From IMG/VR virus record IMGVR_UViG_3300046170_000320, positions 1 to 64,000 of that record: a stretch of 64,000 nucleotides of DNA. The stretch is one strand, 5' to 3'. Shown piece after piece: positions 1,243-59,851 of the stretch. The notes beneath the pieces were generated by a model. It was not told where the DNA came from and ran no database searches. It saw only the letters and a list, made by a program, of their open reading frames with translations. Every line of letters starts with the position of its first letter. Position 1 is the stretch's first letter. The translations under genes and the position numbers were made by a program. The stretch comes from a virus.

Positions 1243-2061
1243 TTATAGTTTTTTATCTATAGATTTATAGATCTCAACACCTTCATCTGTTTTCAAGAAA
1301 GCAGCAAATGCTGAGTAAGGGTTTTCATCAAAAGGTACGTTCATTAATTTTCTACCGTTTGATCCCCAAGTAAATGTTCTTTGATCGCCTGATAAATTAA
1401 TAATACCAGCTTCTGCAGCTCTAATAGCTGTGTTTCTTAATTGAACATTGTCATCATTAGCTAAGCTAATAAATAACTGTGGATTGTTTCTAGCAAACAA
1501 AAGCAAGTCTCTTTTTATTTCTTTAGAGCTCATGCTGCTTACTTTAGATCCAAGCTCAACTCTTAAAATAGCTTCTGCTTGATCTATATCCATATTTCTA
1601 GCCGCATTTAAAGCATCAATTTGAAGATCTAAAACATCTAAATCATCAGCAGCTTCTTCAACAGCACTAAATTCCTCGTATATTCTACCTTTTAAAGGGT
1701 GATACAAAGAAAGTAGCTTTTGTAGGTTTTGTTTTTCTTTTGGAACTTTTAAATCACCGTCTTTAAACATAATGTGACCTAAAGTTGCTTCACCTTTTTG
1801 TTCATCTACAAGTGGTGAATCTTGATTTGTAGCATATCTAATTTCTCTTTGCTTACCATTTACTTTGTCAAAATATAATAAAGAGTGTTTTTTAGTATGT
1901 CTACTTGGTATTGTTAATGTTAAAGGATTTTTATTACCTTTCAAGTAATAAACTCTATCTTTAATTTCCCAACTTGGTTTAGTTGGTTTTGGTGCGGTTT
2001 TAACCGCTACTTCTTGAGGTGCAACCTCAACAGTTTCTACTGCTTTAGCTTTTTTAGCCAT
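1243..2061 (-). CDS. Hypothetical capsid-proximal protein
   Basis: 272 residues. The N-terminus is Lys/Ala/Pro-rich and probably disordered (MAKKAKAVETVEVAPQEVAV), the middle is charged, and residues about 170-240 look helical (DLLLFARNNPQLFISLANDD). It is isolated by terminator-like hairpins on both sides, directly after the major capsid gene. I do not recognise a family. The position suggests a head-completion or minor capsid role, which is inference only. Confidence 0.55.
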   Translation of the reverse strand: MAKKAKAVETVEVAPQEVAVKTAPKPTKPSWEIKDRVYYLKGNKNPLTLTIPSRHTKKHSLLYFDKVNGKQREIRYATNQDSPLVDEQKGEATLGHIMFKDGDLKVPKEKQNLQKLLSLYHPLKGRIYEEFSAVEEAADDLDVLDLQIDALNAARNMDIDQAEAILRVELGSKVSSMSSKEIKRDLLLFARNNPQLFISLANDDNVQLRNTAIRAAEAGIINLSGDQRTFTWGSNGRKLMNVPFDENPYSAFAAFLKTDEGVEIYKSIDKKL

Positions 2062-2139: not shown

Positions 2140-3576
2140 TTACACTCCTTTGAATAATACAAAGTTGTTAGCAGCTTGTGTTACTAAACATCTTTCAGAT
2201 AGGAAGTTTACTTCCATAGCATCTAAAGTAGATGTAAAAGCTCCACCAGCAGAACCAGTCAACCAAGACTTCATGCGACGATCATCAGCTTGTGAAGCTC
2301 TGTATCGTACGTGCAAGAAAGGTCTACGGATGTTAGTTCCTAGTACTTGATCGTAAACAGTTGAAGTTCCAGCAGGAATTAAAACACCTTCAATAGAATT
2401 CACACCGTCGATAGCTCCACGAGTAGAAGCATCGTTCAAGTATTTCCAGTCTGTTTTATAGAAATCATAAGAACCTCTACGGAAACCGCTGAACCCTAGG
2501 TTCAATGCCATTTCTTCTGAGTTTTCAAATAATCCAAAAGCAGTACCACCAGCAGATCCTCCAGAGATTGCAGCTAACATGTCGTCAAAATCCAAAGCAG
2601 TTTGTCTTTGTAAGAATAACATGTTTTCTTCAATAGCTCCTTGAGTATCTAAGTTTTTCAAGATATCATCGAAAGCATCTAATCCAGCAGCAGCAGTGAA
2701 ACCAACGTTTACATTACCACGTCCTTCGATAGCAGCGAATAAACCTTCAGTACCTTTTCCTGTTGTAATAGCAGAAGCAGCACCTACTTTTTCACCTTCA
2801 ATCATAGCCATTTCTAGGTAATCTTCAAAACGTAGTCTTGTTTCAGACTCAGCTTTTAAGTACCATAAATAACCAGAAGCACCATCTTCAGTAGCAACTT
2901 CAACCCATCCAATTTGCGCCATATCAGAACCAGATACTACGTATTGACTTTTGATGATGATTGGTGAATTAGAATGTTGTGTAAACTGAGGATCAACACT
3001 TACGTACTGAGTTCCAGTATTAGCGCCTACAGCTCCAGCTGAAATTGATCCACCTTTTTGGTACTCAGAACCGTAAACAAATACTTTTAATCCTGTAGCT
3101 GTAAAAGCAGCAAGGTTAGCAACAGTATAAGGTTGTACAGTAAGAACACCAGTTGTAGTGTTAGAATCAGTTACCAAACATTTTTCTTCAAGACCAGTGG
3201 CTGGATCTAAAACAACGATAGTAGCTCTAGGAGATACAACGTTGAATACATCAGCAGCAGCGCCAGGATTGATGTTAATTGTAAGGTTACTTGGAAGACT
3301 ACATCCATCATAAGAGATGTGTAATCTATTTTGCTCAGACCAAATTACTTGATCAGATGACATTGGCATTTCAGCGCCAACCATTCGTAAGAATCCAGAT
3401 AAAGTTCTGTTTCCATAGCGCTCTACTTCTTGCTCATAAATCTCTGGTAAATACTGCTGTGCAAAAGTATCTGTATCGCCAGCTGCAGCACCGTCATTAA
3501 ATTTCAAGTAGTTAGAGTTCAAAAGCTCTTGCTTTTGACTTGGCACAATAGCGCCAAATTGAGGAGTTAAACTCAT
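2140..3576 (-). CDS. Major capsid protein
   Basis: 478 residues with an intact frame. It starts MSLTPQFGAIVPSQKQELLN and lies directly after the scaffold-like gene and the portal, the usual position of the major capsid protein. The sequence is typical of phage coat proteins: a helical N-terminal stretch (TFAQQYLPEIYEQEVERYGN), an extended central beta region and a C-terminal segment with SWLTGSAGGAF. There is no Shine-Dalgarno sequence, only an A/T-rich leader ending TTAATATT before ATG. Identification rests on synteny, length and composition. I see no diagnostic motif, so a major head protein is likely but the fold family is not assigned. Confidence 0.8.
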   Translation of the reverse strand: MSLTPQFGAIVPSQKQELLNSNYLKFNDGAAAGDTDTFAQQYLPEIYEQEVERYGNRTLSGFLRMVGAEMPMSSDQVIWSEQNRLHISYDGCSLPSNLTININPGAAADVFNVVSPRATIVVLDPATGLEEKCLVTDSNTTTGVLTVQPYTVANLAAFTATGLKVFVYGSEYQKGGSISAGAVGANTGTQYVSVDPQFTQHSNSPIIIKSQYVVSGSDMAQIGWVEVATEDGASGYLWYLKAESETRLRFEDYLEMAMIEGEKVGAASAITTGKGTEGLFAAIEGRGNVNVGFTAAAGLDAFDDILKNLDTQGAIEENMLFLQRQTALDFDDMLAAISGGSAGGTAFGLFENSEEMALNLGFSGFRRGSYDFYKTDWKYLNDASTRGAIDGVNSIEGVLIPAGTSTVYDQVLGTNIRRPFLHVRYRASQADDRRMKSWLTGSAGGAFTSTLDAMEVNFLSERCLVTQAANNFVLFKGV

Positions 3577-4834: not shown

Positions 4835-7224
4835 TTACATAAACGCGTTCATACCAGCGTCTGGCTGATTTTCAAAGTCTATTGGTAAGCCATCGTTATT
4901 TCTTTGGCTTATCATTTCACTTTGTTGCGTACCTTCCATTTTTATACGCTTGTCTTTTCTATCTTCTTTTTGTTGTTCTTTTTGAGATTGACCTTGAACT
5001 TCAAGTTGTTTCAATTGCATATCGAACTGATGCTGCATTTGCATTTTTTGTTGATCAAGCTGAGCTTGTATTTGCATTTTTTGAATCTCCATTTGAGTTC
5101 TAGCTTGTTCGTATTGAACTTTAGATCCGCTAATAGCCTCTTGCTTTTGAACCTTCGTTCATTGCAATTTTCTCATTAGCATCTGCTTGAGACTCGGCTT
5201 GAGCTCTAATATTAGCTTGATTATTCTCTTGGTCTTTCTTAGCTTTAGCCTTACGCTTAACCTTTAATAATTGATTAGCTAATTTAAGATTTTTAATTTG
5301 TCTTAAATCTATAGCATCTTCAAGATCAATACCTCCTTGCTGCAATGCAACTTGTATATTAGCTTCTAACTGAGCTTTTTCTTCATCGTCTGGTTCTAAC
5401 TCTAAGAAAATACCAAAGTCATGCAGATTTAAATTAACAACTTCTTTCAATGTGTTAACATTGTAATTACTAATAGAGTTAGTAAGCGACTCAGCTGTTA
5501 ATGGAAACTCTAGTGCATCTGCTATTTTAAGAGCTATGTTTTCTGCAACTCTAAGAGTTAAATAAGATGATGACTGCTTGAATATGTCTAGTAGCAACAT
5601 TAGATGCGTTAGCGGCCATTTTTTGTAAACCTACCAACGTGCTTTTGTCTGGCGTACTACCATCTCTAGCTTCATTAAGACCCGTTACGTCGCGTATCAT
5701 TTGCAAGTAATACTGGTACGTATTTATAAGACTTTGTATCTTGCCTTGACCAGAGCTAGAGTTTAATTCTTGAATTGGTACTTTACCTCTGTTTAAGTCG
5801 CCGTCTTGAGTTAAGCTTCTACCTACAATAGAACCAGTTTGGAAATACATATTTAATGCTTCAGCTGGGTTGTAGTTAGTGCCATTGCCAAGATCTACCT
5901 CAGCTAAGCCGTCCATATCTAAATAAACACCATCTGGCACTATTCTAGACATTACCTGCTGTAGTTTCAAATGTGTTATTTGAATCATATCAGCAAAGCC
6001 AATACATTTGCTAACTAAGCTTTCTATTCTACCTTTGTACATTCTGGGTGCACATATAGAATAATTCATTTTAACTTTAGTAGTATCAGCATAAGGTCTT
6101 GACATGTTTTCAGCAAGTTCCCATTTAAGCATCGTATCAGTTCCTAATACTTTAGCGCCGCTGTATAAAACCTCTATTGATCTTGATACTCTTTCAAAGT
6201 TATCATTTTCAGGTGGGATTAAACGTGTCTGGCTTTTCAATAGCTTTTAACAGACCTTGATCTGTTTTCTTAATTTTAAATACTTGATTGTGATATGTCT
6301 TGTAATCAAAGTATAAAACCTGCACAGTATTTTCGTCATATCCACCCCAACCAGTTACATATTGTCTGTTACCTGGCATTTGCTGTATACGCTGTAACTC
6401 TTTTTCAGATATATTTGGAAACTCTTTTTTAAGCTCTGGTATTGTAATAGATTTTATCTCACCTACGTAATATATGTCTTCGAAGTTAGGATCTTCTGTA
6501 TATGAATAAACCATATAAGCTGGGTCTACGTAATCAATAGTAATACCGTTAGCTGTGTTAAAGTTTGTTTTAGCAGCGCGATACCACAAACGGCTAAATC
6601 CATATTAAGTCTACGCTTTGTAAGCTCATATTTGTTTTGAGCCATAACAGAAGATATAGCCTCTTCTTCAGCTATCTCTATGCTTTGCTTATATGATAAC
6701 TGCATATGAAGCTCTAGCTCTTCTTCGCTTTCTGGTAGTAAATCAGGGTTTGGTACTTGGTATAAGTCAATACCTAGATTTGTTTTTAAATTATCTAAGT
6801 ATTGTTTAGCTAGCATGTCTTCATATATCTTAGAAGCATACTCAGTTCTTTTCTTTATAGATTCAGGATCTTGAGCATAAGCTTTAACATCATAAGAATG
6901 TGCTGATATACCATTAACAACAATGTCTACAAACTTAGATAAAATAGGTACAGGTTTCCAGTCTAAATTAAGATAAGACAAATCACCATTAATAGACAAC
7001 TCATCTTTATATTTTTGAACAGGCTGCTCACCTCTAGCGTACAGTCTCAATGTGTTAAAGTTATTCCAATTGGTTAAATAAGCGTTACCGTTGGTTCTAC
7101 CTGATTTGAACCATTCATACTCAATAGCCATAGCAACTTGACTGCCGTACTCTATGCTTGCTTTTTCAGCATCACTAACTACTTGACTTGGAAAAGCGCT
7201 ATTTGAATTAGTATATATATTCAT
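4835..7224 (-). CDS. Portal protein, broken by four frameshifts
   Basis: About 795 residues after frame repair. The start is ATG 7224 (MNIYTNSNSAFPSQVVSDAE), adjacent to the terminase stop. Frame changes are seen near 6575, 6245, 5580 and 5165. At each one the downstream frame picks up exactly where the sequence should continue, for example IEKPDTFN to PPENDNFERV and ATRHIQA to SSSYLTLRVAENI. The C-terminus is a Gln/Lys/Met-rich coiled coil (residues about 640-790), common in large portal proteins. Twelve such subunits would form the DNA entry vertex. Assignment rests on overall sequence character and on position between the terminase and scaffold genes. Confidence 0.8.
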
Positions 7225-9437
7225 TTAACTTATTATTTTTGATGTAGTTCCCCTGTTGTCATATCTTTTGATACCTAAATCTACAGGTTTTAAAATTCTT
7301 TTATTTACTGGTGAATATCTGTGTTTGTTACAAGCCATTAAAGCTAGTCCAGAGCTGATAGAAGCATCGTGCTTTGTTCTATTGTTTATATTAAACTTAG
7401 CCCAGTCTTCTAATGTTCTTTGAAAATAAACATCACCGTAACCTGTTTCTTTTAATCCAACAAAATGCTCTATATAACTTTCTATTGCAGAAGCATGAGC
7501 TTGTTTTATATCTTCACTAGAGTTTGGTATACCACCTAGTTCTCTTTCTGTCACCGATAACTTGCTGTAAGTTCTATCAGGTCTGTTCATTGCAAATCCC
7601 CTATAACCTCTACGTTTAAAATAGTATAGAAGTCTTGGCTTGTTATTCTCTACTAATATTGGCATACCATAAAATACACATGCCATTAACACATCTTCAA
7701 AGAAATATTTCAGCTGTTTGAGGTCTTGCTATATATTCTAAAAAGAAATGATTTGCTGGTGCGTCTTCCATTGAAAACTTGGTTAAGCCGTGCAAAGATC
7801 CTTTAGAACCTCTTTTATCTACTGTACCTGATATATCGTAAGGGTCACATCCAAAAGCACCTATATGCTCGTTACCTGGGTAATTAATGACCATTTTTTT
7901 GATATCTTTTATTTTGCAAATGAACTGCTGGCACCCAAGTTACTAAAAATCTACCACTGTTATTTGGTACAAATATAACTTTACTGTCTTGCTGACCGTT
8001 CTCCCATTGAAAAGAACCTTTTGTTACACTTATAGAATTTTTAAGATCTTCATTAAAATCTATTTGCTCGTATATCTTAGTTAGATTAATAAAGACTCTT
8101 TTGATTCATCTCTAAAAGCGTGCTTAGTAGTACGCGGAAACTGTCTATAAAATTCATTTAAAGCATCTTGATCTTGCTTTCAATCCTTCAACTTCATTGT
8201 CCCAATACTCTATTACACCTAAATCTATTTCATCACCTTGTGGTCCTTCAACTGGTTTTTTTGGCGTGTCGAAGACAGGTAATCCATAAGAATCAATGTA
8301 TCCTTCGTAATTCCACTCCATAGGTATAAACAAGCTATATAATCCAGAGCGAGTTTGTCCATTCGCATTTCGTTGAGTGACGTCCGAGTCATTGTATAAT
8401 TTTTTAAAGTTATCACCACCTTTGTCTAATGAGTTACTAGTTGAACCCATCATACACTTACCAATAATTCTAGAACCTAATCTAAGACAAGTTTTTGTTA
8501 CTCGCCAGTTGTTTAATATATTATTAGGTCTTTCCCACTTACCACTTTCATCGTGGACTAGTAATCTTAGTTTCTCCCCGTCGTACGAGTTGTCCCCTGT
8601 GTTCTTCCAGTCGATCGTGGTGTCGAGACCATCGAGCTCCCTGAGCGATTCGTTTGTCTCAAGCTTCTTACGGGTATACTTTGTCGCGGGTACTCTGTAC
8701 GCAAGCTCTGTCTTTGGCCTGTCCATACCGTCCTGAATTGGTTTGAAAAAGAACGGGTAGTTGACTGATATTGGAACGACCTTGTCTGTAAACATCTTCT
8801 TTGCATCAGGGCCAGATTTGGACAATATTCCAAACCGTGAATCTGACTGAATTGTTGCAGCGTTAACTGTCTCAGCTGAAGACATAAAGGAGAATCCAGA
8901 TCGTCTATTCTTAAGATAGCACATTCCGTAACTACGCTTGTCTGCTTTACAAGCTTCCCAGAATATAAAGAATAATCTGTTTGCTTCCCTAAAGTCTGGT
9001 TGCCCAACATCAATTTTGCTCCACTGCAAGTACATATAGTGAGTACCAGTAAGGTAAGTAGCCACATCCTTATTATAGAACCAAAAGCCTTCTTCCCTGC
9101 GGACGAACTCATTATCGATGTAATCATACCATTTTTCTTTAAAGTCTAGCGGGTATTCCTCCCAATCAAATACAGACTTTATTTTTTTTAATACTTTAGG
9201 ATATTCCGTATATTCCCATTTGTTAGTTTCAAACTTATGTACGTTGTTAGCTTTGGGTAAAGCTATTTTTAAGTTTTGTATCTCGTATATCTCCCCTATT
9301 GTACCGTCTTTACTTATTATAACGATATCGTGTTCTTTGTTGTAACCGTACTCCCATTTCTTATAACGGTTCGTACGTTTTAAAACCTTAGGTTTGATGT
9401 GATCTTTTAAGACCTTATATAACGTTTGCTCGTACAT
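7225..9437 (-). CDS. terL: Terminase large subunit, broken by about four frameshifts
   Basis: About 737 residues after frame repair. The motor that packages DNA into the procapsid. The N-terminal ATPase part (9437-8154) has a P-loop-like KNRRSGFSFMSSAE and a Walker B-like LLVHDESGKWE. The C-terminal nuclease has the RNase H-like start IGAFGCDPYDISGTV with an acidic residue, and a terminal DASISSGLALMA segment carrying the last conserved Asp. Frames change near 8168, 8100, 7910 and 7705, and conserved sequence continues each time. The start codon overlaps the stop of the small-subunit candidate (TAATG). The order small subunit, large subunit, portal, scaffold, capsid is classical. Confidence 0.88.
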
Positions 9438-15061: not shown

Positions 15062-15463
15062 TTATTTATTTTTATTTGTTATTGATTTTGCTTTTTCCCA
15101 CGTGCGGCCTACAAAATACGCGCCATACACTGTAACTAAAAGAGTTTGGAATATTGGTATATACTCTTCTGATATTTTAAATTGTCCAATGTTGCCATCA
15201 AAAAATGCACATACAGTAAATATAACTGTTAAGTATATAAGTACCATTGGACGAATATTTTTAGACAAGAACGAATCAGACTGCATGTCTGACTGCCATC
15301 TTGCTGTAACTTGTTCCTGCGCTTCTTTATCTGCTTTCTCAAGTATTTCAGTTATTAGCCTTTGAGCCTCTAACTTTTCTTCCTTGGTAGTAGTTAGTTT
15401 ATCAATAACATCACCAACTTCTTTGATGACATTACCTGTTAACCATTCCCAAATTTTCTTCAT
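15062..15463 (-). CDS. Holin with gene-transfer-agent-type transmembrane organisation
   Basis: 133 residues. Amphipathic N-terminus, then ARWQSDMQSDSFLSKNIRP leading into a transmembrane segment (MVLIYLTVIFTVCAFFDG, about residues 72-90) and a second one (IPIFQTLLVTVYGAYFVG, about 102-120). The 'RW.SD..SDS.LSK.IRP' approach to the first helix is characteristic of the three-TM gene-transfer-agent holin family. The protein would form the inner membrane lesion that releases endolysin. It overlaps the upstream zincin gene by one base, indicating a lysis cassette. Confidence 0.75.
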   Translation of the reverse strand: MKKIWEWLTGNVIKEVGDVIDKLTTTKEEKLEAQRLITEILEKADKEAQEQVTARWQSDMQSDSFLSKNIRPMVLIYLTVIFTVCAFFDGNIGQFKISEEYIPIFQTLLVTVYGAYFVGRTWEKAKSITNKNK

Positions 15464-16602: not shown

Positions 16603-16962
16603 TTATTTATCAAAGTGTCCTTTTTGTCTGCGTAATTCGTTAAGTGCTTTCAACTTTCTTTTCATGTCAGCTATTTTTTGAGAATCGTCGCTGCTTAAGC
16701 TTCTAGGATTAGCTGAAGGACTGGCTGGAATATCTCCAAAGTCACCTTTCTGTCTTCTAAGCTCATTATGGGCAGATAGCTTGGATTTCGTATCTTTTAG
16801 TTTTTTATCATCGTCATGATCTCCACCGTGCATTTTAGCTGGACTATGTCCCATGTGTAAAGCAGACTTTGAGTGCTTTGACATCCATGATCCTCCACTA
16901 GCGTGTTTAGCTACTGGGTTATCATGCATTAAGTTGTATTTTTCTTGTTTGTTTGATTCCAT
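16603..16962 (-). CDS. Basic, His/Lys-rich small late protein with internal repeat
   Basis: 119 residues. Contains HSPAKMHGGDHDDDKKLKD and an internal duplication: KSKLSAHNELRRQKGDF and KRKLKALNELRRQKGHF, each preceded by an acidic stretch. Highly charged, probably helical or disordered. It belongs to a run of small basic proteins (16.6-18.2 kb) that share a Ser-Pro-x-Lys-type motif. Possibly packaged with the virion; this is inference. Confidence 0.5.
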   Translation of the reverse strand: MESNKQEKYNLMHDNPVAKHASGGSWMSKHSKSALHMGHSPAKMHGGDHDDDKKLKDTKSKLSAHNELRRQKGDFGDIPASPSANPRSLSSDDSQKIADMKRKLKALNELRRQKGHFDK

Positions 16963-16973
16963 GTTTGTTTTTT

Positions 16974-17243
16974 TTAGAAGCAGTGTTTAGCCGCTGGTGA
17001 TTTGTGTTTTTTATCGTATTTCATATCTCCAGCAAGCTTAGAGATGTGTTTTTCATCTGCAGTCATATTAGCATCACTATAACCGTGTTTAGCATCATAC
17101 TTAATATCTTGTTTTAAATAATCAATATGAGCAGCATCGTCTTTTTCTGTAGCTTTATAGTTACTAGCAGTTACTTTTGTGTGAGCGTGATCCATACAGC
17201 ATCTAGCATTACCTGTGTATTTTCCGTAGTGTCCTTTTTCCAT
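16974..17243 (-). CDS. Small His/Lys-rich late protein
   Basis: 89 residues, starts MEKGHYGKYTGNARCCMDHA and ends HKSPAAKHCF. Rich in His, Lys and Asp, with three Cys and several His that could bind metal. Two DIKYDAKHGYSD / DMKYDKKHKSPA segments look like an internal repeat. No family recognised. Part of the small-basic-protein run. Confidence 0.5.
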   Translation of the reverse strand: MEKGHYGKYTGNARCCMDHAHTKVTASNYKATEKDDAAHIDYLKQDIKYDAKHGYSDANMTADEKHISKLAGDMKYDKKHKSPAAKHCF

Positions 17244-17246
17244 TTT

Positions 17247-17747
17247 TTATATTTTAACGCAACTCATACTTGTGTTACCTTTTGAGTCTGTGATTTTTTT
17301 ATATTTCATACCAGTACCAAGGCCAGGTTTTCCTTCGCACTCTTCCTTAGCATTTTTTCTTGCAACATTAGCATCAAACTTTTCAGCTCCTTCCGCTATA
17401 CCTTTAAACATGTTCATATATAAATCTGCAGTTGGTCTATAGTCACTAGCGCTCATACCACCTCCAACATAACCACCTTGGTTTAATGGACTAGTGTCCA
17501 TATCTGGTCTTTCAAAAGACATAGATACTCTAGTATCCTCATCGTAAGATTTACTTGATTTTTTGTTTTTCAGCTTCTTAGCTTTATCTAAGAGCTTAAC
17601 TACTTTTTCATCAGAGTAATTGTAACCACCAGTTTCACCACCTCTTTCAGATCTTTTCTGAGCTCTTTTAATAAGTCTGTCTGCTCTGTTTTTACCTAAC
17701 TGTTTCATAGGTGAATTACCCATGTACTTTTCTGAAAACTTTGTCAT
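17247..17747 (-). CDS. Lys-rich late protein with SPxK/SPLN motifs
   Basis: 166 residues. Starts MTKFSEKYMGNSPMKQLGKN, then a basic stretch (KKLKNKKSSKSYDED), a DTSPLNQGGYVGGGM motif in the middle, and a C-terminal domain with ADLYMNMFKGIAEGAEKFDA and two Cys. The Ser-Pro-Leu-Asn-type motif recurs in neighbours and in the 46-48 kb cluster. Function unknown. Its stop/start overlap with the next gene shows translational coupling. Confidence 0.5.
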   Translation of the reverse strand: MTKFSEKYMGNSPMKQLGKNRADRLIKRAQKRSERGGETGGYNYSDEKVVKLLDKAKKLKNKKSSKSYDEDTRVSMSFERPDMDTSPLNQGGYVGGGMSASDYRPTADLYMNMFKGIAEGAEKFDANVARKNAKEECEGKPGLGTGMKYKKITDSKGNTSMSCVKI

Positions 17748-17944
17748 TACTTGTATACTTTAGCTTTGCTAGTAATTGGTCCAGCTTCATACTTGCAAGG
17801 ATATTTAGATACTTCTAAACCAGTAATACCATTGCTATTACCAACACCCATTGGGAAACCTTCTTTACTTAATGGCCCGTCCCAAATAGCATTTTCACCT
17901 ACTTGTCCTGCTAAATCAGATTTTAATTGTTTTATATCTTTCAT
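17747..17944 (-). CDS. Small hypothetical late protein
   Basis: 65 residues, starts MKDIKQLKSDLAGQVGENAI and ends YEAGPITSKAKVYK. One Cys and no membrane segment. Overlaps the following gene by one base. Nothing in it points to a function. Confidence 0.45.
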   Translation of the reverse strand: MKDIKQLKSDLAGQVGENAIWDGPLSKEGFPMGVGNSNGITGLEVSKYPCKYEAGPITSKAKVYK

Positions 17945-17948
17945 GTTT

Positions 17949-18245
17949 TTATTTTTTGTATTTACAACCTTTTTTAGCTAGTGCACTTCCATACATACCT
18001 GGCATTTGCTGACCAAACATTTGGCTTGCAACTTGCTGTGTTTGCGGTGGAAATACATTATTAGCTGACTGCGCTGGCGCCACTGGCATACCTGTCATAG
18101 GATCTACAATAGGCTGCATTTGCTTAGCAGGCGAATCATAGTTCATGTTAGCTGCGCTAGATTTATTGATAGCATCGTACTTAGCCTGTTCCCAGTCGTC
18201 GATCTTACCGTTTTTGTTGATGTCTTTTACTTCGTATTTAGCCAT
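17949..18245 (-). CDS. Small late protein with an EF-hand-like loop
   Basis: 98 residues. Residues 8-19 (DINKNGKIDDWE) match a 12-residue calcium-binding loop, with Asp, Asn, Asn and a terminal Glu at ligand positions. After this comes YDSPAKQMQPIVDPMTGMPV, a Gln/Met/Pro-rich low-complexity region, and a basic tail. A single EF-hand-like or dockerin-like loop is present, so calcium binding is possible but untested. Confidence 0.5.
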   Translation of the reverse strand: MAKYEVKDINKNGKIDDWEQAKYDAINKSSAANMNYDSPAKQMQPIVDPMTGMPVAPAQSANNVFPPQTQQVASQMFGQQMPGMYGSALAKKGCKYKK

Positions 18246-18247: not shown

Positions 18248-18688
18248 CTATCTGTTTTTATCTTTGTTCACATTATAAATAGCTTTAGTCATAACCTTGT
18301 CAGTGTATGTCTCGCCATTAATTATTTTATTTCGTCTACCTGTGTTTATATCTTCTTCGCCTAGCATTATTCTGTATATTCTACTTATAAGCTGCTTGCC
18401 TTTAAAAGACACTTTATATATATGGTATTTTTGAGTGGTTCTGTTTCTATGTCTCCAGACTTTAATCCAGTCCTGCTTTAGCAGCCTGTTCCATCTTCGG
18501 TTATCCCAGCTGTAAGAATAAACACCCATCTCAAAGTCTTTCTTAGTGAAAAACTCCATACAATCAAGGTATATAAGAAGTTCTAGATCTGCATCATTTA
18601 AATCATTATTACGACAGGCCCATTTTCTTATAATGCGATAGTGTTTCAAGAGGTTTAGTTCTCTAATGTCACTAGCGGCTAATCTCAT
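18248..18688 (-). CDS. Putative winged-helix DNA-binding protein
   Basis: 146 residues, basic and Trp/Arg-rich. DADLELLIYLDCMEFFTKKD resembles the first helices of a MarR-type winged helix. RRWNRLLKQDWIKVWRHRNR could be the recognition helix and wing, and YHIYKVSFKGKQLISRIYRI closes the domain. It overlaps the groES stop by four bases, so it is expressed with the chaperonins. A transcriptional role is plausible. The target is unknown. Confidence 0.5.
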   Translation of the reverse strand: MRLAASDIRELNLLKHYRIIRKWACRNNDLNDADLELLIYLDCMEFFTKKDFEMGVYSYSWDNRRWNRLLKQDWIKVWRHRNRTTQKYHIYKVSFKGKQLISRIYRIMLGEEDINTGRRNKIINGETYTDKVMTKAIYNVNKDKNR

Positions 18689-18948: not shown

Positions 18949-20486
18949 TTCTTAAATTATTAATTACACAATCAGTAGATAATATTGTTGTTGCTACAGA
19001 AGCTGCATTTTGAAGAGCGCTCTTGGTGACTAGTAGTGGATCTATAATACCCGACTTAATCATATTTACCATTTTTCCTGTAACCACATTATAGCCTTGT
19101 CCTTTTCTTGTTGGTGTTTCAACATCTTGAACACCTGCGTTTTCAAGTATAGTTTCAAAAGGAGCTTTAATAGCATCTAGCAAAACTGTTTCACCTATTG
19201 ACTTAGCTGTTATATTTGTTGCAGCGTTTAATAGAGCAATACCACCACCAGGAACAATCCCTTCTTTGATAGCAGCTTTAGTAGCACAGATAGCATCTTC
19301 GACTCCTATCTGTTTTTTCTTTTAATTCTATTTCTGAATTAGCACCGACTTTTACTATTGCTATTTTAGCAGATAGCATGGCTAATCTTTTTTCAAGCTT
19401 TATAAGCTTATTAGGATTTTTTTCACTAGAAAGCTTAGATTTAATTTCATCTATAACCTCTATAACCTGTTGTGGTGATTCTTCTACTTGAAGTATCGTG
19501 TCCTCGTGTGATGTAACACTTTTAACGCAACCACCTAAATGCTCAGGCTGTATCATTTCCATGTCATCGCCTAAGTCTTCATTTATAATAGTAGCACCAG
19601 TAAGCAGTGAAAGGTCTTGTAGCATCTGTTGTTTATTAATTCCATAAGTTGGAGCATCAATAACATTTACTTTAATGTTGCCTTTCATTTTATTCATAGC
19701 TAGAGCGGATAAAACACCTTGTTCTAAATCGCCTATAATAAGCAAAGGTTTGTTGTTTTTTATTACGTACTCTAGCACAGATTGAATCTGTCTTATTGTA
19801 TCAACTGGTGATTCTAGTAAAAGTACTAGTGGATTTTCTAGTTCAGCAGTTTTAGTTGCTTGGTTGGTTACAAAGTGTGAGTTCTTAAGACCTTTGTCGT
19901 ATTGAACGCCATCAACAACTTCTACATGTGTTTTACCATCAGAAGCTGTTTCCATCATAACTACACCTGTGTTATCTACAGATCTAAATGCATCTGCAAT
20001 AATCTCGCCAAGCACAGGATCATTGTTTGTAGATATCGTAGCTATTTGATCTATCATACTACCTTTTACATCTACTGTTAATGACTTTAGGTATTTAACT
20101 GTTTTTTCAACAGCTGAATTAATACCGTCTTTTAACTCTCTTGAGTTTGTTTTATCAGCTACTTTATAAGCCTCGAGCAGTATAGCATGTGCTAGTACTG
20201 TGGCTGTTGTAGTTCCATCACCTGCTTCTTGTACAGTTTTGCGGGCCGCCTCTTTTAAAAGCGTTGCACCCATGTTTTCTACTGGGTCTCGCAGTATTAT
20301 TGAATCTGCAACTGTTACACCATCTTTGGTTATGATTGGTCTTCCAGTGTGATCTTCTAACATAACGCATTTGCCGCTAGCTCCAAGAGTGGAACTAACA
20401 GCTTGCGTTAGTTTTTCAATTCCTTTAAATACATTAACTCTAGCGTCCTCGCCGAAGTTAAGGTTTTTGACTATTGCGTCTGACAT
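18929..20486 (-). CDS. groEL: GroEL-type chaperonin, one frameshift
   Basis: About 519 residues, slightly short of bacterial GroEL and without a Gly-Gly-Met tail. The start is ATG 20486 ([20 protein letters not shown]). ATPase signatures are present: [38 protein letters not shown] (DGTTT), and after a shift near 19310, [20 protein letters not shown] with the GGG nucleotide loop. The catalytic Asp in VEDA is kept. The apical domain runs from about residue 185 to 370. The frame change (KEKTDR to VEDA) is one extra base and looks like a sequencing indel. It probably folds the large virion proteins. A phage-borne complete GroEL is uncommon. Confidence 0.9.
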
Positions 20487-46211: not shown

Positions 46212-46523
46212 TTATTTATACATTCTAGCCAGTTTTGAAGCTGGTACTCCATCTTTTTTTACAGATCCACCTTTTGCTATTTCCATAGTATAAGCATAAT
46301 CTTTTAAAGACTTAATATCTTCAGGCTTTCTAGGCTTAACATAAGTTTTAGGTCCAGCGCCATCCGTGTCATCAATATAAAAACCTTCTTTACTTTGCTT
46401 AACATATTTATCGTAAGCAGGTTTATGAAGTTTTTGAATTGAATCTTGATATTCTTTTTTCTTTTTAGGATCTATTTTTAATGGTGATTTACCGCTAAAT
46501 GATTTTTGAAATGGTGAACTCAT
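46212..46523 (-). CDS. Small basic late protein with SPLK motif
   Basis: 103 residues, starts MSSPFQKSFSGKSPLKIDPK. Very Lys-rich, with SKEGFYIDDTDGAGPKTYVK and a KLARMYK end. The N-terminal Ser-Pro-Leu-Lys is one of the short motifs shared by small late proteins in both clusters. Overlaps the next gene by four bases. Function unknown. Confidence 0.5.
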   Translation of the reverse strand: MSSPFQKSFSGKSPLKIDPKKKKEYQDSIQKLHKPAYDKYVKQSKEGFYIDDTDGAGPKTYVKPRKPEDIKSLKDYAYTMEIAKGGSVKKDGVPASKLARMYK

Positions 46524-46804
46524 GATTTTTTTGATTTATTTTTTTGACAAAAGTTTCTAGCTGCTTCTACGCTGCCGAAACCCCACTTTTTTAGTGCCAT
46601 TGCTTTTTTAGTTGGTTCGCCTTTAGCATTTTTCATTGCTCCAGCCATACCAGCAAATCTACAAGCAAATGACACTCTTCGCTTGTTAGTTCCTTTTGTA
46701 AGTCTTTTACCTAATTTCTTACCGGTTTCAGATGTATACTCTGACCGCATTTTTCTATTTTGCTTTTCGTAAGCTTTTTCTTTTATTTTTACTGGTGATT
46801 TCAT
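46520..46804 (-). CDS. Small basic late protein with SPVK motif
   Basis: 94 residues: MKSPVKIKEKAYEKQNRKMR, KRRVSFACRFAGMAGAMKNA and ALKKWGFGSVEAARNFCQKN. The 'RRISFACRFAGM.GAMK......K.MAL.KWGF.S...A..FC' layout is widespread among uncultured marine phages, usually near lysis genes. Net charge strongly positive. Function unknown; probably virion-associated. Confidence 0.6.
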   Translation of the reverse strand: MKSPVKIKEKAYEKQNRKMRSEYTSETGKKLGKRLTKGTNKRRVSFACRFAGMAGAMKNAKGEPTKKAMALKKWGFGSVEAARNFCQKNKSKKS

Positions 46805-47318: not shown

Positions 47319-47723
47319 TTATTCTCCACATTTTTTTGATGGATCATCTACTCTTCTCCAGTCTTCTTTTTCAAACCAGTCTCTAAGTGTAGCTCCTTTC
47401 TTACGAGCGCCTTTAACATTAGTCTTAGACGATCTTTTATATTTACCTTTTGCGCCAGCAGATTTCTTAGAGTTAACCAGCTTCTGTCTCTCTTCTTTAC
47501 TCATGCTTCGTATTTTAGAAGCAGGTAAACAAGTTTTAGTTGTACCTCCACCTTTTTGTTTATTAAGTGGAGATCTTTTTTCTTCTGCTTGGGCTAAACC
47601 TACTTTGTTACCATCTCCTCTACCAGAAACAGCAGCGGTTCTATTGCGCATTTTATTCCAAGGTTTTGAGTGCATAACTGTAGCAGCACAATGCATCATA
47701 GGTGTTTTTTGTGAATAAGCCAT
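47319..47723 (-). CDS. Basic late protein with SPLN motif
   Basis: 134 residues. MAYSQKTPMMHCAATVMHSK, then RSPLNKQKGGGTTKTCLPAS, SAGAKGKYKRSSKTNVKGAR and a C-terminal TLRDWFEKEDWRRVDDPSKK. Extremely Lys/Arg/Ser-rich, with the C-terminal LRDWFxxEDW conserved in several phage and large-virus proteins. DNA-binding or virion-packaged role possible. Stop overlaps with the next start. Confidence 0.55.
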   Translation of the reverse strand: MAYSQKTPMMHCAATVMHSKPWNKMRNRTAAVSGRGDGNKVGLAQAEEKRSPLNKQKGGGTTKTCLPASKIRSMSKEERQKLVNSKKSAGAKGKYKRSSKTNVKGARKKGATLRDWFEKEDWRRVDDPSKKCGE

Positions 47724-48097
47724 TACTTTTTCTTTTTACCTCCGAACTTACCAGGTCCACCAGCTTTAGTACATCTTACGCCCCAGCCTGAAGCATAAGC
47801 ACTAGGCCAAACCTTAAATTTCTTTTTTGCTGCAGCTTTACATGCTGAACTTATTTTACCATAAAGTGGTGATCCCATATTTATACCTGATTTAACAACG
47901 TAAGGTCCTATTTTATCTACTTTTACTTTAGAATAATCTTCAACAGAATGCTGTGGAAAAGTAGAAGCATCTCCTTCTTTTTTAGCAAATTGCTTTTCAA
48001 AATCATCTTCAGTAACATAATCACCTGGCTTATAGGTTTTACTAGGTTTGTTTATCCTAATAGTATCTTTATGTTTTTTATTTTTTTGATTCGGCAT
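47723..48097 (-). CDS. Basic late protein with KVWPSAYASG motif
   Basis: 124 residues from ATG 48097 (MPNQKNKKHKDTIRINKPSK); an upstream ATG at 48121 lies inside the giant protein gene and is less likely. It contains YVVKSGINMGSPLYGKISSA and KKKFKVWPSAYASGWGVRCT, a motif common in phage and algal-virus proteins of unknown function, plus a Gly/Lys tail. Overlaps the upstream stop by 20 bases. Confidence 0.6.
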   Translation of the reverse strand: MPNQKNKKHKDTIRINKPSKTYKPGDYVTEDDFEKQFAKKEGDASTFPQHSVEDYSKVKVDKIGPYVVKSGINMGSPLYGKISSACKAAAKKKFKVWPSAYASGWGVRCTKAGGPGKFGGKKKK

Positions 48098-51000
48098 TTT
48101 TCTTTTTATTTTGTAGTTCAATTATTTTTTTAACTCTAGCATCTTCATAACGCAATGCTTTAATTTGTTTTTTATCAAGACCTAAATCTAATAGCATTTG
48201 TACTTGATCAGATGTTTTAGTATCTTTTTTCATTGTATCAAACTCACGTTGTTTAATCTCTTCAGGTGTTGGATCTTTAGGTTTGTCCCAACCTCCATAG
48301 TAAGGTAAGCCAATGTCATAAGTACCCCAACCTAAGCCTAATGCAACTTTTTGCCAAGTCTCTGTTTGATTACTTAATAAACCTCTAACGTTGTTTGCTT
48401 TCTTAACAACACGATCAACAGGCACGTTTGTAAAAGCAGATATAATCTGAGCACCTGCTAAATAAGCTGGGTTGTCAAGGCTAAAGCCTTTTTCTTTCAT
48501 TTCTTTTCTATTCCAGCTAAAGCTTTTTAATCCGCCTACTAGTTTTCTATATTTAGAATTAAGTGGTGGTGAAAATCCTAGAGCTTCAACTGATGCAGCT
48601 TCATACTCAGGTGTTTTCTTACCGTGCTCATCGTATAGTTTAACTATCATATTTTTAAGAGCTGAAACTGCTGTACCTGCAACACCTAAACCTTTAAGCT
48701 GTGAGTCAAGCATACCGTTTGCAACTCTAGCTATTTTCTTATCAGCACGTGCTTTTTTCTTAGCATCTTCTTCTTCGTCTTCGCTATCACCAAATCCTAT
48801 AGCAAATAAAGCTTGCTGCAGCGCGTTGAATATTAAATTCTGTACAAAACCATAATAAGCTATTTTAGACACATGAGTTCTCCAGTCGCCGCGACCTGCA
48901 ATAAGATCTTGTGCAGATCTTTTTTGTATTCTAGCATACTGCATCGGAGTATTTGCCCAAGCAAGTATTACACGACCTGCGGCTGATGCCTGCTGCATAC
49001 TAATTTTAGACGGATCACTTGACTGCTGGTTTTCTTCAGCTAATGCTCTAAAGTCATCAAATGCTTTTTCTTCTGCAAGCTTTTGATCCATACCTTCTTT
49101 AATATACTTTTTTATTCTATTTCTATAAAACGTAGCACCGCCTGAAGCAATAGCAAAACTGTCAGCAAACCTTGTCATAACAAAACCCTTGCTAAGTAAG
49201 AAAGCAATAGCAGCTCTTGGTTTGTTTTTAGAATCTTTTACTGCATCTGCTATTTCAGATTCACTTACATTAATTTTAAGACCGTTACGGCGTTGTGTTA
49301 AATAATCAGAGTTCATAAGCGACATAAAGTCTTTCCAGTATTGTTTCTGATTTGCAAACGCTTTACCTGCAGCTACAATATTATTATCACCCCAATTTAT
49401 AAAGTTTACAGCAGAGATGGTCTGTAGCAATGCAGATCTTGTATTTAAGAACATTACAGCACCGACAGAGTTGTTTAGCCAGTCGAATATCTTTTCTGTT
49501 ACAGGGTTGCTTCCTATTGGTCTATTAGTACCAGCTTTCATACGACGTATGCTATCTTCCATAGCTCGACGCCATCTTGTACCGTAAGCAGCTTCCATTT
49601 TATTTAAGTTCTCAGGTGAGAATATAATATCTAAGTTCTCTCTAAACTCTTGCTGAGCTTCTGCTCTACTGACCTTGTTTATACCACCAATAATATCTGT
49701 AGTTAAGTTACCACCTAACCAGTCTTTACTAGGTTCAGGATATAACTTACCTTTTTGTATTGATATTAATTGATCTGCAAACGCTTGTAATTTAGGGTCG
49801 TTCTTAATAAAGGCATTTAGCTTTCTAATGTCTGCTTTTGATAATCCAGGTATTGACATACCTTGTTGCGTCCATATGTAAGTTCTAATAGCATGCTGAT
49901 ATGTAAAACCACCAATACCAGTTTCTTTTCTAAATGTTTTAGGTAAACCTGGAAATTGCTGTTTAAGTGCCATAAAGTCATTAGCTGCTGCCATTTTAGC
50001 TTGAACAACAGTGTCTTCGGCTTTCATATACGGATCTAACAAATTTGTTTTAAGAAAAGCCATTTGAGCATCACCCTTTCTTTCCTTTGCCTAGCATCTT
50101 GTACAATAGACCTGTAAAGTCTTCTGCCGATGCAGGTATTAAGAAATTATACTTACCTTTGCTAGCACCGACTGTTTTAGCCTTTTGCAGCTGAAAACTG
50201 CTTGTATGTTTCAATTCCAGAGGAATCAAATATCATATCATTGACTATAGTGTCAAATGTTTGCTTTTTACTAGCTCTAGCTTGTTGCACTCTTGATTTA
50301 ACATCTATTTGATCTAAAACTTCTTTAACAGCTTTAACGTTTTTACTAGCATCATCTGCAAAGTAAAAGTCGTTATAACCTTCAGCTGCTTTACCAGCTA
50401 TCCATCTACCTTTAGCCGCAGCTGTGCCATCGCCTAAACCTGTTATATTGCCTAAAGGTATATCAATACCCAGCGCTTTCATAAAAGCCTTTATAGGACC
50501 AGCCGCTGCTTGTGGTCTTGCTGTTAATATAAACAAGTCTTCTGTACCACGAGTATCTGCTATTTTTTTAGCAACATTAAATAGTGGTCCTTTCTTGCCA
50601 TCAATCACTTGCTCGAACTGACTAAAATCAAATGTAGCGCCTTGGGCTTCAAGATCTGCCGCTTGCTCAGCAAACTGTGTAGCATTTATTTCTTTAGTGC
50701 CGCCTGGAACTTCTTTTAAAACCTCTGCTTTTTGAGAATCAGTAAGACTATTGAAATTTTGTTTATAGCTAGGTAGGTTTTCAAATTCTTTTTTAAACTT
50801 TCTTCTAGCTACAATATCAAGCATATCTTTATCTATGCTAGATATAGGCATATTAACGATAACTTTGCTATTAGATCTAGCTAGCGTGTCATCAAAATCA
50901 AATACTCTTATTTTTCTAACAGGTTTGTCTATTTTTCTACCTTCATTTAAAGCTTGATCAAGATTGCTTAATTCACCTACTATGTCTTGATTTGTTTTTT

Positions 51001-54000
51001 GTTTTTGACTAGCTCTAGCGTAACCTAGAGGTCCAGGCATCATTTCTGTGTTTTGCTTCTTAGCTCCTTGATAAGTTGATTTATTATTGATCATGTTTTT
51101 GACAATAATACCTTCAGGACTTAAACTCGCATCTGAAGCAGTGGAAATTATTTTAGCTTGTTTTTCGCTAAGTTCTTGAGCTATAAATTCAGCTAAATTT
51201 GTACCTGTAAAAATTCTACCTGATGGTAATCTTCGTATTCCAATAGGTATTTGAAACTGAGCATCTTTGCCTAAAAAAGTTAAAGGATTTGCAAAACTTC
51301 TGACAGACGCACCATCTGCATCTTTTTCTACTCTCATTCTTTCTGAGATAACAGCTTGCTCTAGACTAGCAGCGTTAACTTTAGCGTCAAATATAGCTTT
51401 TTCTTTAGTTATTTCACCTTTTCTAAACTTATTTAATATATTTAAAAAATTCTTATTAGCGTTAAAAAGCTCTACTAAATGCTCATTATGCATTCTTTTA
51501 TTTTCAGTTTTACCTTTAGTAGTACCTTTTTCTGGTTTTATGCTAAAACTAGTAACAGGTATTAAACCCTTAAATATACCAGTTGCTCTATTTACTTGAG
51601 ATTCTAATATATCTATTATTGTTGCAAAATTTTCGCTAGTAGGATCAGCTGCAAACATGTTTATTAAAGAAACATAAGTGTCAGAAACCGCTCTTTGATT
51701 CGCAATTAAAACATCATCAATATTTGTTTCTTTATCTGGAGTTAAAAGATCTTCTACTTTAGCTCGTGTTTCGTCTAAAGTTATATCACCATTATTATAT
51801 GAATCAGCTATTTTTTCAACCTTACCTCTAAATCCTTTTTGACCCCAGTTTCTTGGAGCAAAAACATTTTCACTGCTCCCTAACTTAGTTCCAACACCTT
51901 TTAAAACATCGGCTCCAAAAGCAGCTGTTAATAACTTACTATAGCCATCGCTAGATTTTAAACCATATGCTTTGTATGTCAATGGCTTTCCTCCTATTGT
52001 TATTCTAGTATCGCCAAAACCTACAGTATCTATAATAGCTTGCTGCATAGACTTTGGTAAATCAGAAAAACTTTTACCTTTAGGTATCATGCCTTTGATT
52101 AAAGAAGTATAACCTTTTTTAAGTTTAGCTGCGTTAGCTACAGATGATATTTCATTTTTGCCTCCAACTCTAACATTAAATTTGCTTCTTAATTCTTTAT
52201 ATCTTTTTTCATTTGTAAAAAGATAATCAACAGCGTCCGTAAAATCAACACCTAGAGTTTTTGCTGTATCTTCAATAAAATTTATTTCAGCTTCAATAGC
52301 ATCTGCATCGAGATTTCCAGATAAAGTTTTTTCTAAAAACTTCTTAGCTCCTTTGTTTTCTACTTCATTTACAGCTTCTTTTATTATTTTATTACTAAAC
52401 CTAGCGCCTGTTCTTGTTCTAGCTACAGGATCTGGTACAGCTTGCTCAAATATCAAGTTTCTAAGAGATAAGTTAGCCAAGCCTTTTAATGCTTGAGCGT
52501 CACCTGATCTATACACAGCATCCTTACCTTTAGCTTTTTTAGCTTCAGGATTTAAAGCGTCAATTATATTTTTATAATCTTTTAAACCTTTTCTAGTGTC
52601 TCTTACGTATTTGTCTTTAGAGTTTTTAGTAAATAAGGCTTCTAATATTTTACCAGGTATAGAAGTTGATTTACCTTCTATGTTTGCAGCTTCTGCCAGC
52701 ATCGCAAAGTCAGCCTCTGCGTTTATATTTAAAAATTGTTGTAAAGCCGTAACAGCGCCTGACACAACATCGCCTTTCATTATATTTTGATTCTTCTTAG
52801 AAAACCTATTAGCTTTCAAGCCAGTAGCTTTTTCCATTAAAGCAGCAACCGCAGGTCCTATGTCTTTAATGTCTTTAAACTCTTTTATTTCACCCTTGTA
52901 AAAGTTAGCAATGTCATCTGCAATGGCCTCTTCAAACAACGCGTCTACCTCAGCCTTTGTGCTAACACCTAAATTACTTAATATTGTACTAGGATACTTC
53001 CTAGACGCCTTAGGAGTTGTTCTAGCTCTTGCTTTTTGCTTCGTAGTGGTTGTTTTTTTACTAGCAATTTGTCTAGCCTCCGAGCCGCTTGTACTTTCAG
53101 TTACAAATTTATTTGGATCAAGACCTGCTGCTGTATATATTTCAGCTGCTCTTACTCCTAACCTTCCTAGAAAAGTACTAACCTCACCTTTATCTTCGGC
53201 ATATTCTTCCGCTAGTGATTTTTTTCTACCTTTAAAAGTTATATCAACCATACCAGGCGTCATCATGTCTGTCACGGCTTGAAGTATGTCATTTGAATCA
53301 ACACCACTTTGCTGCGCTACATCAGGATTAAACTTTAATAAATCTAATATTAAACCAGAGTTTTCTTCAACAATCGTAGTTGCAGCACCAATGTCTCCCT
53401 CGACAATGTTCTGCATTAACTTCTTGTTTCTTGTAGCCTTTTCAGATAGTCTAGCTTCACCTTGTTCAGTAACTTCAGTTCCTTTTATAGTTCCTGTTTT
53501 TGCAGCTACATCTGCACCTTTACCACTCTTAATTGCTTTATTATATCCTTTAACAAAGTCTAAAGCACTTCTACCAGTTCTAAAGCTAATATTTAATTTA
53601 CCGCCACTAAATATACTTTTTAATGTTCTGCCAAAATCTACAAATTTGTCAATTAAAGTAGTGTTTTCTACTATTTGATCATTAGATAAACCTTCACTAG
53701 TTAAAGTAAAAACTTCTTCGTAGTACTGCTCTTCGCTTATATCGCCGTCTCTAAACTGTTTATTAGCTTGATTAAGTCTATTTGCTACTACAGCATCTAG
53801 TTCTATGCCATCACTATTTAATAAAGCTTCTAGCTTTTTACCAGCTTTTATTTTAGCGGCACTGTTATTTACAAATATTTTATCTAACAAAGCATGTAAA
53901 ACTTCGTGCTGAGCTGTAGTTGCTACATTATCTTGTAAAGCAGAAACTTCGTTTAATATAACTTGAGTAGTTCCATCACCCATTCTAGATATAAAACCAT

Positions 54001-58180: not shown

Positions 58181-59851
58181 TTAATATCCATTATTAAAAT
58201 TATATTCACTACCGACTTGAAATAACTGTTTTTCGCCTCCAAAATCAGTAGTAGAATCTGTTGACATTGTAACTACTGAATAAAAGCCTTTAATACCAGT
58301 TATGTCATTTCCAAAATGAATTTCACCCTCTACCGGTGTACTATTATTAACTAAATTAGCATAATATTTATTTTCTTTACGATTAAAACCTGCTCTAAAA
58401 ATATTACCAGTAAGAGGAGTAGGGAAAACATTGCCAAAAGAATCATAACTACCTTCTTCGTAACTTAAAACATTATTTGTAGAATCATTTGAAAAAGAAT
58501 AAACACTATTAATTTCATCTTCACCTGTTGAGTCTGAAATAAAAGAATCAACTTGCCAACCGTTATAGCCTTCGTACTCTATATTTTTGAAAGTTTTAGA
58601 TACGCTAGGATTTTCGTTTAAGATAAATTTTATACTTGAATTGTAATTTATTCCGTAAAATTTGTTTCTTGCTAAATCACTAAAATTAAGTTGCGTATTG
58701 TCGTTTAATATTTGAGCTTTATTAACTGTTATTGTATTACCGTTAATGCTTAATATAAATGTTCCAGGTTTTATTGTAGAACCGTAAACAATGTCACCTA
58801 GTCTTAAATCACCTTGAATATTATCAAGAGTAATTAATTGACTAGTCTGAACAGGACCATTTGTCAATGCTTGAGTAATTTTGTTTTCATTATAATTATG
58901 AAGCCAAAGTCTGCCATTTTCCGTTGTGTATGTTTGGTTTCTAATTGATAATATTTGATCTGGTTTGAAACTAAAAAAGCTAGTCCAACCTTTAACCCTT
59001 TCGTCCCAAGCTAAAGTAGTAGGTTTATTATTATTATCATTTAACGTTATATTTTTTCTAGTATTAACAAAATATTGACTTGTATACACATCCCAGCCAC
59101 CTAATATTCTTCCTGGAGCTGAAGATAATTTTATTCTGTTTAATTCATCTCTAAAATAATCTTTCATACCAGCAGAAGATATTTCATCTATACCACTTCG
59201 AGAAAGTTTTAATATAACATTTTTGTTTGAATCTGAAAAATATTTATTGTATCCATAAACAGCAAAGCTTTCTGGATTTTTAGATATTCCATATTCACCA
59301 GCATAAGGTTGAATAGCACCTATAACTAAGTTAGAAGAAGTAACAGTGCCACCGCCTTCTGCTGAATAAATAGCGTCTTTATCAATTAAAGCTCTACTTA
59401 CTTTTAGCTCTTGAAATATATTTAAATTAGTATCTTCAGCATAAAGTTTCTGTATAGATCCATTAACAGGGTCTAAACTTTTAGTTATTTCCTCTCCTAC
59501 GCTAAAAACATTAGTATTGTTTATACCTGTTCTAGAATTAAATATACCAGAGTATATAAGTGTATTAACTCTTGGTGAAGCATTTGGCTCGTCTTCTACT
59601 AAATAAGCCTTAGCACCGTAATCTGTAGATGTATTATTATAACCACCTCTAATTCTAGCTTCCTCAATAGACCAATTAGTTAAATCGTCATCATCAACAG
59701 ACAAAGGAAAATTTCTAGGATAACCACCAATTTCTTGAGGTATACCTCTTGAGCCATTCCACATAGCTGTTCCATCGCTTGAATTGAAGCCGCTATTACT
59801 CTTTTTTAGAATAAAGGTATTAAAATATTTTACTTCTATTATAGCCGCCAT
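58181..59851 (-). CDS. Beta-rich virion tail/stabilisation-type protein
   Basis: 556 residues, intact, starts MAAIIEVKYFNTFILKKSNS. It contains many short beta segments and Asn/Ser/Tyr-rich turns; FPLSVDDDDLTNWSIEEARI near the start, RILGGWDVYTSQYFVNTRKN, then WDERVKGWTSFFSFKPDQIL about halfway. The last resembles a conserved piece in tail-tube or stabilisation proteins of podophages and crAss-like phages. It lies directly downstream of the larger relative (59886-64000). Part of the tail or portal-tail junction, by inference. Confidence 0.6.
   Translation of the reverse strand: MAAIIEVKYFNTFILKKSNSGFNSSDGTAMWNGSRGIPQEIGGYPRNFPLSVDDDDLTNWSIEEARIRGGYNNTSTDYGAKAYLVEDEPNASPRVNTLIYSGIFNSRTGINNTNVFSVGEEITKSLDPVNGSIQKLYAEDTNLNIFQELKVSRALIDKDAIYSAEGGGTVTSSNLVIGAIQPYAGEYGISKNPESFAVYGYNKYFSDSNKNVILKLSRSGIDEISSAGMKDYFRDELNRIKLSSAPGRILGGWDVYTSQYFVNTRKNITLNDNNNKPTTLAWDERVKGWTSFFSFKPDQILSIRNQTYTTENGRLWLHNYNENKITQALTNGPVQTSQLITLDNIQGDLRLGDIVYGSTIKPGTFILSINGNTITVNKAQILNDNTQLNFSDLARNKFYGINYNSSIKFILNENPSVSKTFKNIEYEGYNGWQVDSFISDSTGEDEINSVYSFSNDSTNNVLSYEEGSYDSFGNVFPTPLTGNIFRAGFNRKENKYYANLVNNSTPVEGEIHFGNDITGIKGFYSVVTMSTDSTTDFGGEKQLFQVGSEYNFNNGY

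Follow-up and report, generated by a model that had tools for sequence, protein, structure and literature searches.

A Ser-Pro Peptide Shared by Unrelated Small Late Proteins: A Candidate Virion-Targeting Signal in Uncultured Marine crAss-Like Phages

The Window and Its Phage

The window analyzed here is a stretch of 64,000 bases, part of a 65,933-base virus record (IMGVR_UViG_3300046170_000320), and it carries two clusters of small late genes whose otherwise unrelated, lysine-rich products share a short Ser-Pro tag. Its main landmarks are the following.

2140-3576, minus strand: MCP-like protein
5130-7224, minus strand: portal, split over several ORFs (portal pieces at 5551-7224)
8154-9437, minus strand: large terminase piece, matching only part of the profile
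15062-15463, minus strand: holin
19278-20486: GroEL, matching only part of the profile
58181-59851, minus strand: tail protein with a crAss muzzle C-terminal domain (PF25729, 8.2e-12)

The muzzle domain (58181-59851) scores 45.8 bits against a Pfam cut-off of 27 and marks a predicted crAss-like tail in the window. In the middle third, genes for ligase, ERF, Toprim/helicase, thymidylate synthase, and ribonucleotide reductase lie on the plus strand, and because of this content they are treated as early genes. A late protein of 2070 aa (50177-56389) shows, by eye, a zincin-like stretch (HEVLH) and, toward its C-terminus, a HAD-like one (DFDDTLA), with nothing above the Pfam cut-off.

Viral contigs contain at least 600 relatives of the window's MCP. 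Those in the phage collection belong to Flavobacterium phage elemo, Maribacter phage Panino, and the Cellulophaga phages of Callevirus and Baltivirus, while the labels of relatives in MAG contigs are largely, not exclusively, Bacteroidetes or Flavobacteria. Judging by these phages and labels, the host is likely a member of the Bacteroidetes. The phages encoding tagged proteins are an uncultured marine group in the crAss-like podovirus clade.

Researchers working with such data, which are mostly metagenomic, should keep in mind that the split portal and the partial terminase and GroEL (5130-7224, 8154-9437, and 19278-20486) look like sequencing errors or decay in the record. Since these genes are broken, the limits of individual ORFs may be misplaced; the motif genes are unbroken, and relatives keep them.

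The Two Clusters

Cluster 1 and its syntenic anchor comprise the features below.

16603-16962, minus strand: 119-aa small basic late protein with a class II leader (residues 1-41, ending in HSPAKM, S40) and a variable C-terminal body
16831-16962, minus strand: class II leader module MESNKQEKYNLMHDNPVAKHASGGSWMSKHSKSALHMGHSPAKM, residues 1-44, from alignment
16974-17243, minus strand: 89-aa His/Lys-rich late protein ending in KSPAAKHCF (KSPAAK, S82)
17247-17747, minus strand: 166-aa basic late protein, N-terminal MTKFSEKYMGNSPMKQ
17478-17495, minus strand: TSPLNQ, residues 85-90 (S86) of the 166-aa protein, internal
17700-17717, minus strand: NSPMKQ, residues 11-16 (S12) of the 166-aa protein
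17747-17944, minus strand: 65-aa conserved late protein without the motif, inside the cluster (61 related ORFs)
17949-18245, minus strand: 98-aa late protein with an EF-hand-like N-terminus, DINKNGKIDDWE, and DSPAKQ at residues 37-42 (S38)
18248-18688, minus strand: winged-helix-like (wHTH) protein, the anchor, identified by inspection and synteny, with no Pfam match

Both SP sites of the 166-aa protein are kept in three relatives (L003-L005). The family of the 89-aa protein counts 54 ORFs, many of which continue past HHGSPAK into variable tails. No relatives of the cluster 1 proteins were found in the phage collection. The stretch DINKNGKIDDWE reads as an EF-hand loop, and DINKN..I..WE-like stretches occur in small proteins of L005, L106, and L120.

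Cluster 2 and its anchor are as follows.

46212-46523, minus strand: 103-aa basic late protein with the class I leader MSSPFQKSFSGKSPLK and KSPLKI (S13)
46479-46523, minus strand: class I leader, 15 codons, from an alignment of 22 sequences
46520-46804, minus strand: 94-aa DUF6321 protein (PF19846, 4.6e-9) with the N-terminal tag MKSPVK (KSPVKI, S3)
47319-47723, minus strand: 134-aa Lys-rich late protein, RSPLNK at residues 50-55 (S51), directly ahead of a conserved KGGGT.KTCLPASK...GATLRDWF body
47723-48121, minus strand: 132-aa Lys-rich late protein, GSPLYG (S84), with SPLYGKIS ahead of a WPSAYASGWGV body
48078-50063, minus strand: 661-aa late protein, the anchor

The DUF6321 protein clears the Pfam gathering cut-off (37.2 bits vs 28.5); its AlphaFold model is moderate (pLDDT 72.6), and a PDB search with it gave no match. 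Relatives of 47723-48121 are 42-60 aa long and mostly start near [ST]PL. Compared with the 59-aa version in a close relative (L170:13606-13785), the window protein has an insert of about 75 residues ahead of GSPLYGKIS.

These places are conserved. Most of the 12 relatives have their tagged genes in the same two positions as the window, one bounded by the wHTH-GroES-GroEL genes and the holin, the other following the 661-aa late protein; in G028 there is at most one motif copy, adjoining the wHTH gene. The same MCP group was present in 29 of the 30 records searched, which were module carriers or MCP relatives.

Enrichment of the Motif

The starting point was an earlier note that quoted nine peptides from the two clusters. 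All nine are present where it placed them, all on the minus strand, and the observation is real and was, if anything, understated. The Ser-Pro-x-(Lys/Asn) consensus proposed there describes seven of them and does not describe KSPAAK or GSPLYG.

Expected counts in the window were obtained from composition-preserving shuffles. On this basis SP[ALMVI][KN] is found in 7 of 38 small ORFs on the late strand, where 0.45 are expected (0 of 2000 shuffles reach 7), in none of 42 small ORFs on the early strand, and at chance level in ORFs of more than 300 aa (2 vs 1.25 expected). An earlier single-linkage clustering of all ORFs of at least 40 aa had mixed late with early genes and admitted spurious ORFs, which diluted the signal, and it was replaced by the strand-split test on the homology-reduced set described next.

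The earlier note had set enrichment in related genomes as a check, its absence to count as a refutation, and the check brought no refutation. Across the window and 12 relatives, a redundant set, the motif occurs 57 times in small late proteins against 5.9 expected, with small early proteins (2 vs 3.6) and large late proteins (14 vs 12.5) near expectation. As homologous genes inflate this count, a homology-reduced set was made from the window and 11 relatives, in which no two proteins are BLAST-similar at E 1e-3 and the near-identical G001 is left out. Here SP[ALMVIF][KNEQ] occurs 26 times in 144 small late proteins against 3.45 expected (0 of 300 shuffles reach this) and 3 times in 188 early proteins against 3.11; this set shows no enrichment of TP, AP, GP, NP, or KP, nor of SP with other residues behind it. 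The shuffle tests reject chance as the source of the motif, and the view that otherwise unrelated, Lys-rich small late proteins share it proves correct and statistically strong. Six isolate or reference genomes contain the motif without clear enrichment (0 to 2 copies vs 0.6 to 0.8 expected), and no large virion protein of the window or the 12 relatives bears a leader.

The third residue favors L (5.5x) or F (7.6x), more than A, V, or M, and the fourth is N, K, or Q, also E; the motif is therefore better written S-P-[L/F]-[N/K/Q] than S-P-x-[K/N]. In the homology-reduced set more than half of the copies fall within the first 20 residues, and some are internal or C-terminal. The quoted motif proteins contain 12-22% Lys and have a net charge of +3 to +22.

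The protein encoded directly after the MCP (1243-2061, minus strand) has a conserved YATNQxSP[F/L]xDEQ segment; of 100 aligned rows, 93 have the S and 98 an F or L, but just 72 have the P. Its SP[F/L] resembles the tag, to which it may possibly be related.

Two Classes of Leader

Many of the copies are accounted for by two classes of leader. The class I leader, MSSPFQKxFSxKSPL, has the motif at its end. It starts 38 distinct ORF sequences (46212-46523 of the window and 37 in related contigs), its first residue falling on the mechanically assigned ORF start in 35 cases and on an in-frame Met in 3, and the bodies behind it fall into 16 families (E 1e-3). In the alignment of 22 sequences every invariant column (M1, S3, P4, F5, F9, K12, and P14) lies within the leader, conservation at S, P, F, and K being partly circular because a DNA pattern with these positions fixed supplied most of the class I sequences. 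No such circularity affects the conserved S2, Q6, and S10, which were open in that pattern, or the N-terminal location and the unrelated bodies. The boundary is sharp, with no conserved residue after it. Class I contigs that extend over the MCP region share the same MCP. Two large contigs with no MCP (L210 and L212) were rejected as carriers: their hits are chance matches to the DNA pattern, with a stop in the reading frame.

At ten loci two or three adjacent genes each begin with a class I leader. Across 12 adjacent-gene pairs the leaders are identical at 12-14 of 15 residues and at merely 29-38 of 45 bases, identity in the 45 bases on either side is at chance level, and the bodies have no BLAST match to each other. 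The first seven codons are near-invariant in DNA (AGT 34/36, TCA 36/36, CAA 33/36). Ser13 is encoded by 21 TCN and 14 AGY codons, and there is synonymous variation at Pro14, Lys12, and Leu15; with both Ser codon classes in use and the Pro, Lys, and Leu codons varying, it is the protein, not the DNA, that is kept.

The class II leader, MESNKQEKYNLMHDNPVAKHAS..SWMSKHSKS..SP, is longer. The protein at 16603-16962 has matches at 76 viral loci, mostly over its first ~44 residues, and in an alignment of 23 sequences every invariant column (M1, E2, S3, Q6, E7, K8, L11, D14, P16, A21, S25, S28, K29, H30, S40, and P41) falls within residues 1-41, the final Ser-Pro included. The spacer ahead of that Ser-Pro differs in length. 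Half-modules occur in swapped order in L162 and L164, which also have repeated MGHSPMK/MGHDSA units, and some proteins repeat MGHSPAE units, all of which suggests a modular peptide. AlphaFold renders the class II protein as mostly disordered or as low-confidence helices (pLDDT 62.2).

Other bodies receive the tag by different routes. DUF6321 proteins of the clade start with MKSPVK, MKTPIN, MAYKQSPLF, or MENNSPLF, keeping [ST]P near the start, and their homologues in Methylophilales phage MEP401 and Pelagibacter phage HTVC200P have no tag. The GATLRDWF body is preceded in different relatives by RSPLNK, SNSPFTK, SSPFQKK, ISPLNK, SPLNKG, or NTPLHKK, in flanks that cannot be aligned, and the SAYASGW body by SPLYGK or TPLLRK. 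A DUF5754-like body occurs with the tag in L214 (MAFTQNGSPFLK) and without it in L195, L058, L203, and the elemo and MW202828 phages. By their predicted sequences, DUF6321-type and DUF5754-like bodies thus exist with and without the tag, which is detachable; together with the GATLRDWF and SAYASGW cases, they answer the objection that one conserved DNA stretch was simply copied.

Weighing the Explanations

A constant peptide on many changing bodies, confined to late genes, calls for a constant partner. From the position of the genes and the analogy with T4, the best-supported candidate for this partner is the virion or prohead. We hold, at about even confidence, that the Ser-Pro motif may be the conserved core of a detachable, mostly N-terminal address peptide for virion targeting, and that the tagged proteins would be carried as cargo. 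By way of the leader, a large variety of unrelated small late proteins, most of them basic, would be brought during virion assembly to a single putative receptor, presumably a virion or prohead component. They would then ride inside the capsid or in the wide tail of crAss-like type, either as cargo or as DNA-associated internal proteins, and packaging would be followed by their ejection. The support is indirect: the genes are late, the cargo is basic, and cluster 1 lies in a slot near the wHTH gene. In Cellulophaga phage phi40:1 the Lys-rich gp80 and gp69 have a structural annotation based on experimental MS/MS; gp80 is one gene away from a wHTH gene, and its homologues lie beside wHTH genes in Panino and elemo. 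Against virion targeting, the gp80-like virion proteins of these isolates have no SP motif, and internal or C-terminal copies are unlike a pure leader; the lack of clear enrichment in the six isolate or reference genomes and of leaders on large virion proteins also counts against it.

The earlier note had named a targeting signal, a docking peptide, or a protease site. Sequence comparison favors either of the first two, because a bounded, detachable leader is kept while bodies change. Docking would mean that the tag brings small late proteins, themselves unpackaged, to a non-virion late factor in the cell, such as the phage GroEL/GroES beside cluster 1, the packaging motor, or the host RNA polymerase or nucleoid. 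Nearly every relative with sequence over cluster 1 does have GroEL/GroES genes next to it, and internal and repeated copies suit a multivalent docking motif; however, elemo, Panino, and MW202828 also encode GroEL or GroES without clear tag enrichment, and the bodies share their richness in Lys with the MS-detected virion proteins of phi40:1, which leaves docking on such a factor, in our judgment, unlikely. The protease site fares worse. A cleavable propeptide, cut in its SP region by a prohead protease as the cargo matures, would fit a short, bounded leader and has a precedent in the CTS peptides of T4, which are both targeting and cleaved (PMC9026906), but a Pfam search of 20 window proteins, late and early, recognized no prohead-protease family, the sole peptidase found being an M15 cell-wall peptidase. 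No residue is conserved after the leader, moreover, and cutting at internal or terminal copies would destroy the body, so we regard cleavage as improbable.

Spread by recombination, with the short coding segment ATGAGTTCACCATTTCAAAAA copied between adjacent genes as a crossover site or start-codon context and having no function as a peptide, would explain both the near-invariant first seven codons and the leader common to adjacent genes. It does not explain why codons 10-15 vary synonymously, TCN/AGY for Ser13 included, while the residues stay constant, nor why class II, DUF6321, GATLRDWF, and SAYASGW families reach SP[L/F] through different DNA and flanks; absence from early genes speaks against it as well, and we give this explanation little credence. 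As for the chemistry of the motif, S-P-x-K resembles the SPKK of histones and CDK consensus sites, and the bodies are Lys-rich, which could point to minor-groove contact or to phosphorylation of Ser-Pro by a proline-directed kinase. The preference for L or F at the third residue and for N, K, Q, or E at the fourth, in place of basic residues after SP, is ill-suited to groove binding, no kinase was found among the window proteins searched, and TP is not enriched in the homology-reduced set; both variants were rejected, and a role of this kind is very improbable.

Comparison with Known Systems

In phage T4, N-terminal propeptides of 10-19 residues target diverse basic proteins into the head, and one of these internal proteins is injected and inhibits a restriction enzyme of the host (PMC9026906; PMC3012670). 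The likeness to the T4 CTS (IPI, IPII, IPIII) lies in a short constant N-terminal leader, diverging bodies that are exchanged between relatives, and small basic late proteins (PMC9026906; PMC3012670); a constant short N-terminal leader on diverse bodies is what is found here. Among the differences, the two share no family model, no gp21-type protease was found in the 20 window proteins, tags of the clade are also internal and in repeats, the clade is podovirus-type and crAss-like, whereas T4-like phages are myoviruses, and packaging in the clade is a prediction. On our best reading the leader may work like a T4 CTS, homology not being claimed; it is not classed as one because no such protease was found and packaging and cleavage of the tagged proteins are putative.

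The virion of phicrAss001 stores ejected cargo proteins in its capsid and tail and has a muzzle protein, which the window resembles in encoding the muzzle C-terminal domain; its cargo (gp45, gp46, and RNA polymerase subunits) differs in being few and large, and no shared short tag is described in the parts of that report consulted (PMC10172136). The gp80 and gp69 of phi40:1/phi38:1 (Pervagoviridae) are small, Lys-rich, and on the late strand like the tagged proteins, with gp80 near a wHTH gene as in cluster 1, and they are MS-detected in virions; unlike the tagged proteins, they have no SP leader, and phmmer found no match between them and the ORFs of the clade. The DUF6321 protein (46520-46804) has homologues in Pelagibacter and Methylophilales phages, which differ in lacking the N-terminal SP tag.

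Neither the leader nor most of the bodies have a family in Pfam or PHROGs. The open-access literature searched gave no description of the motif and nothing usable on DUF6321-type proteins in virions, and a study of protein methylation in Cellulophaga phages (PMC13288928) has no bearing on the tagged proteins.

Implications

How cargo is loaded outside T4-like phages is poorly understood; crAss-like virions have measured cargo space whose loading is unexplained. We suggest, tentatively and as a possibility on the doubtful side, that the leader may be a dedicated loading signal, with which each genome of these uncultured marine Bacteroidetes phages would tag its own fast-changing small effectors, to be packaged in the crAss-like virion and delivered to the host together with its DNA. 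If this were true, the list of tagged proteins would be a list of injected effectors across hundreds of genomes. A short readable tag turns proteins that are listed as hypothetical into a testable signal; it would allow virion cargo to be predicted from sequence alone in a large uncultured marine phage group, and would probably also predict injected host-takeover or counter-defence proteins.
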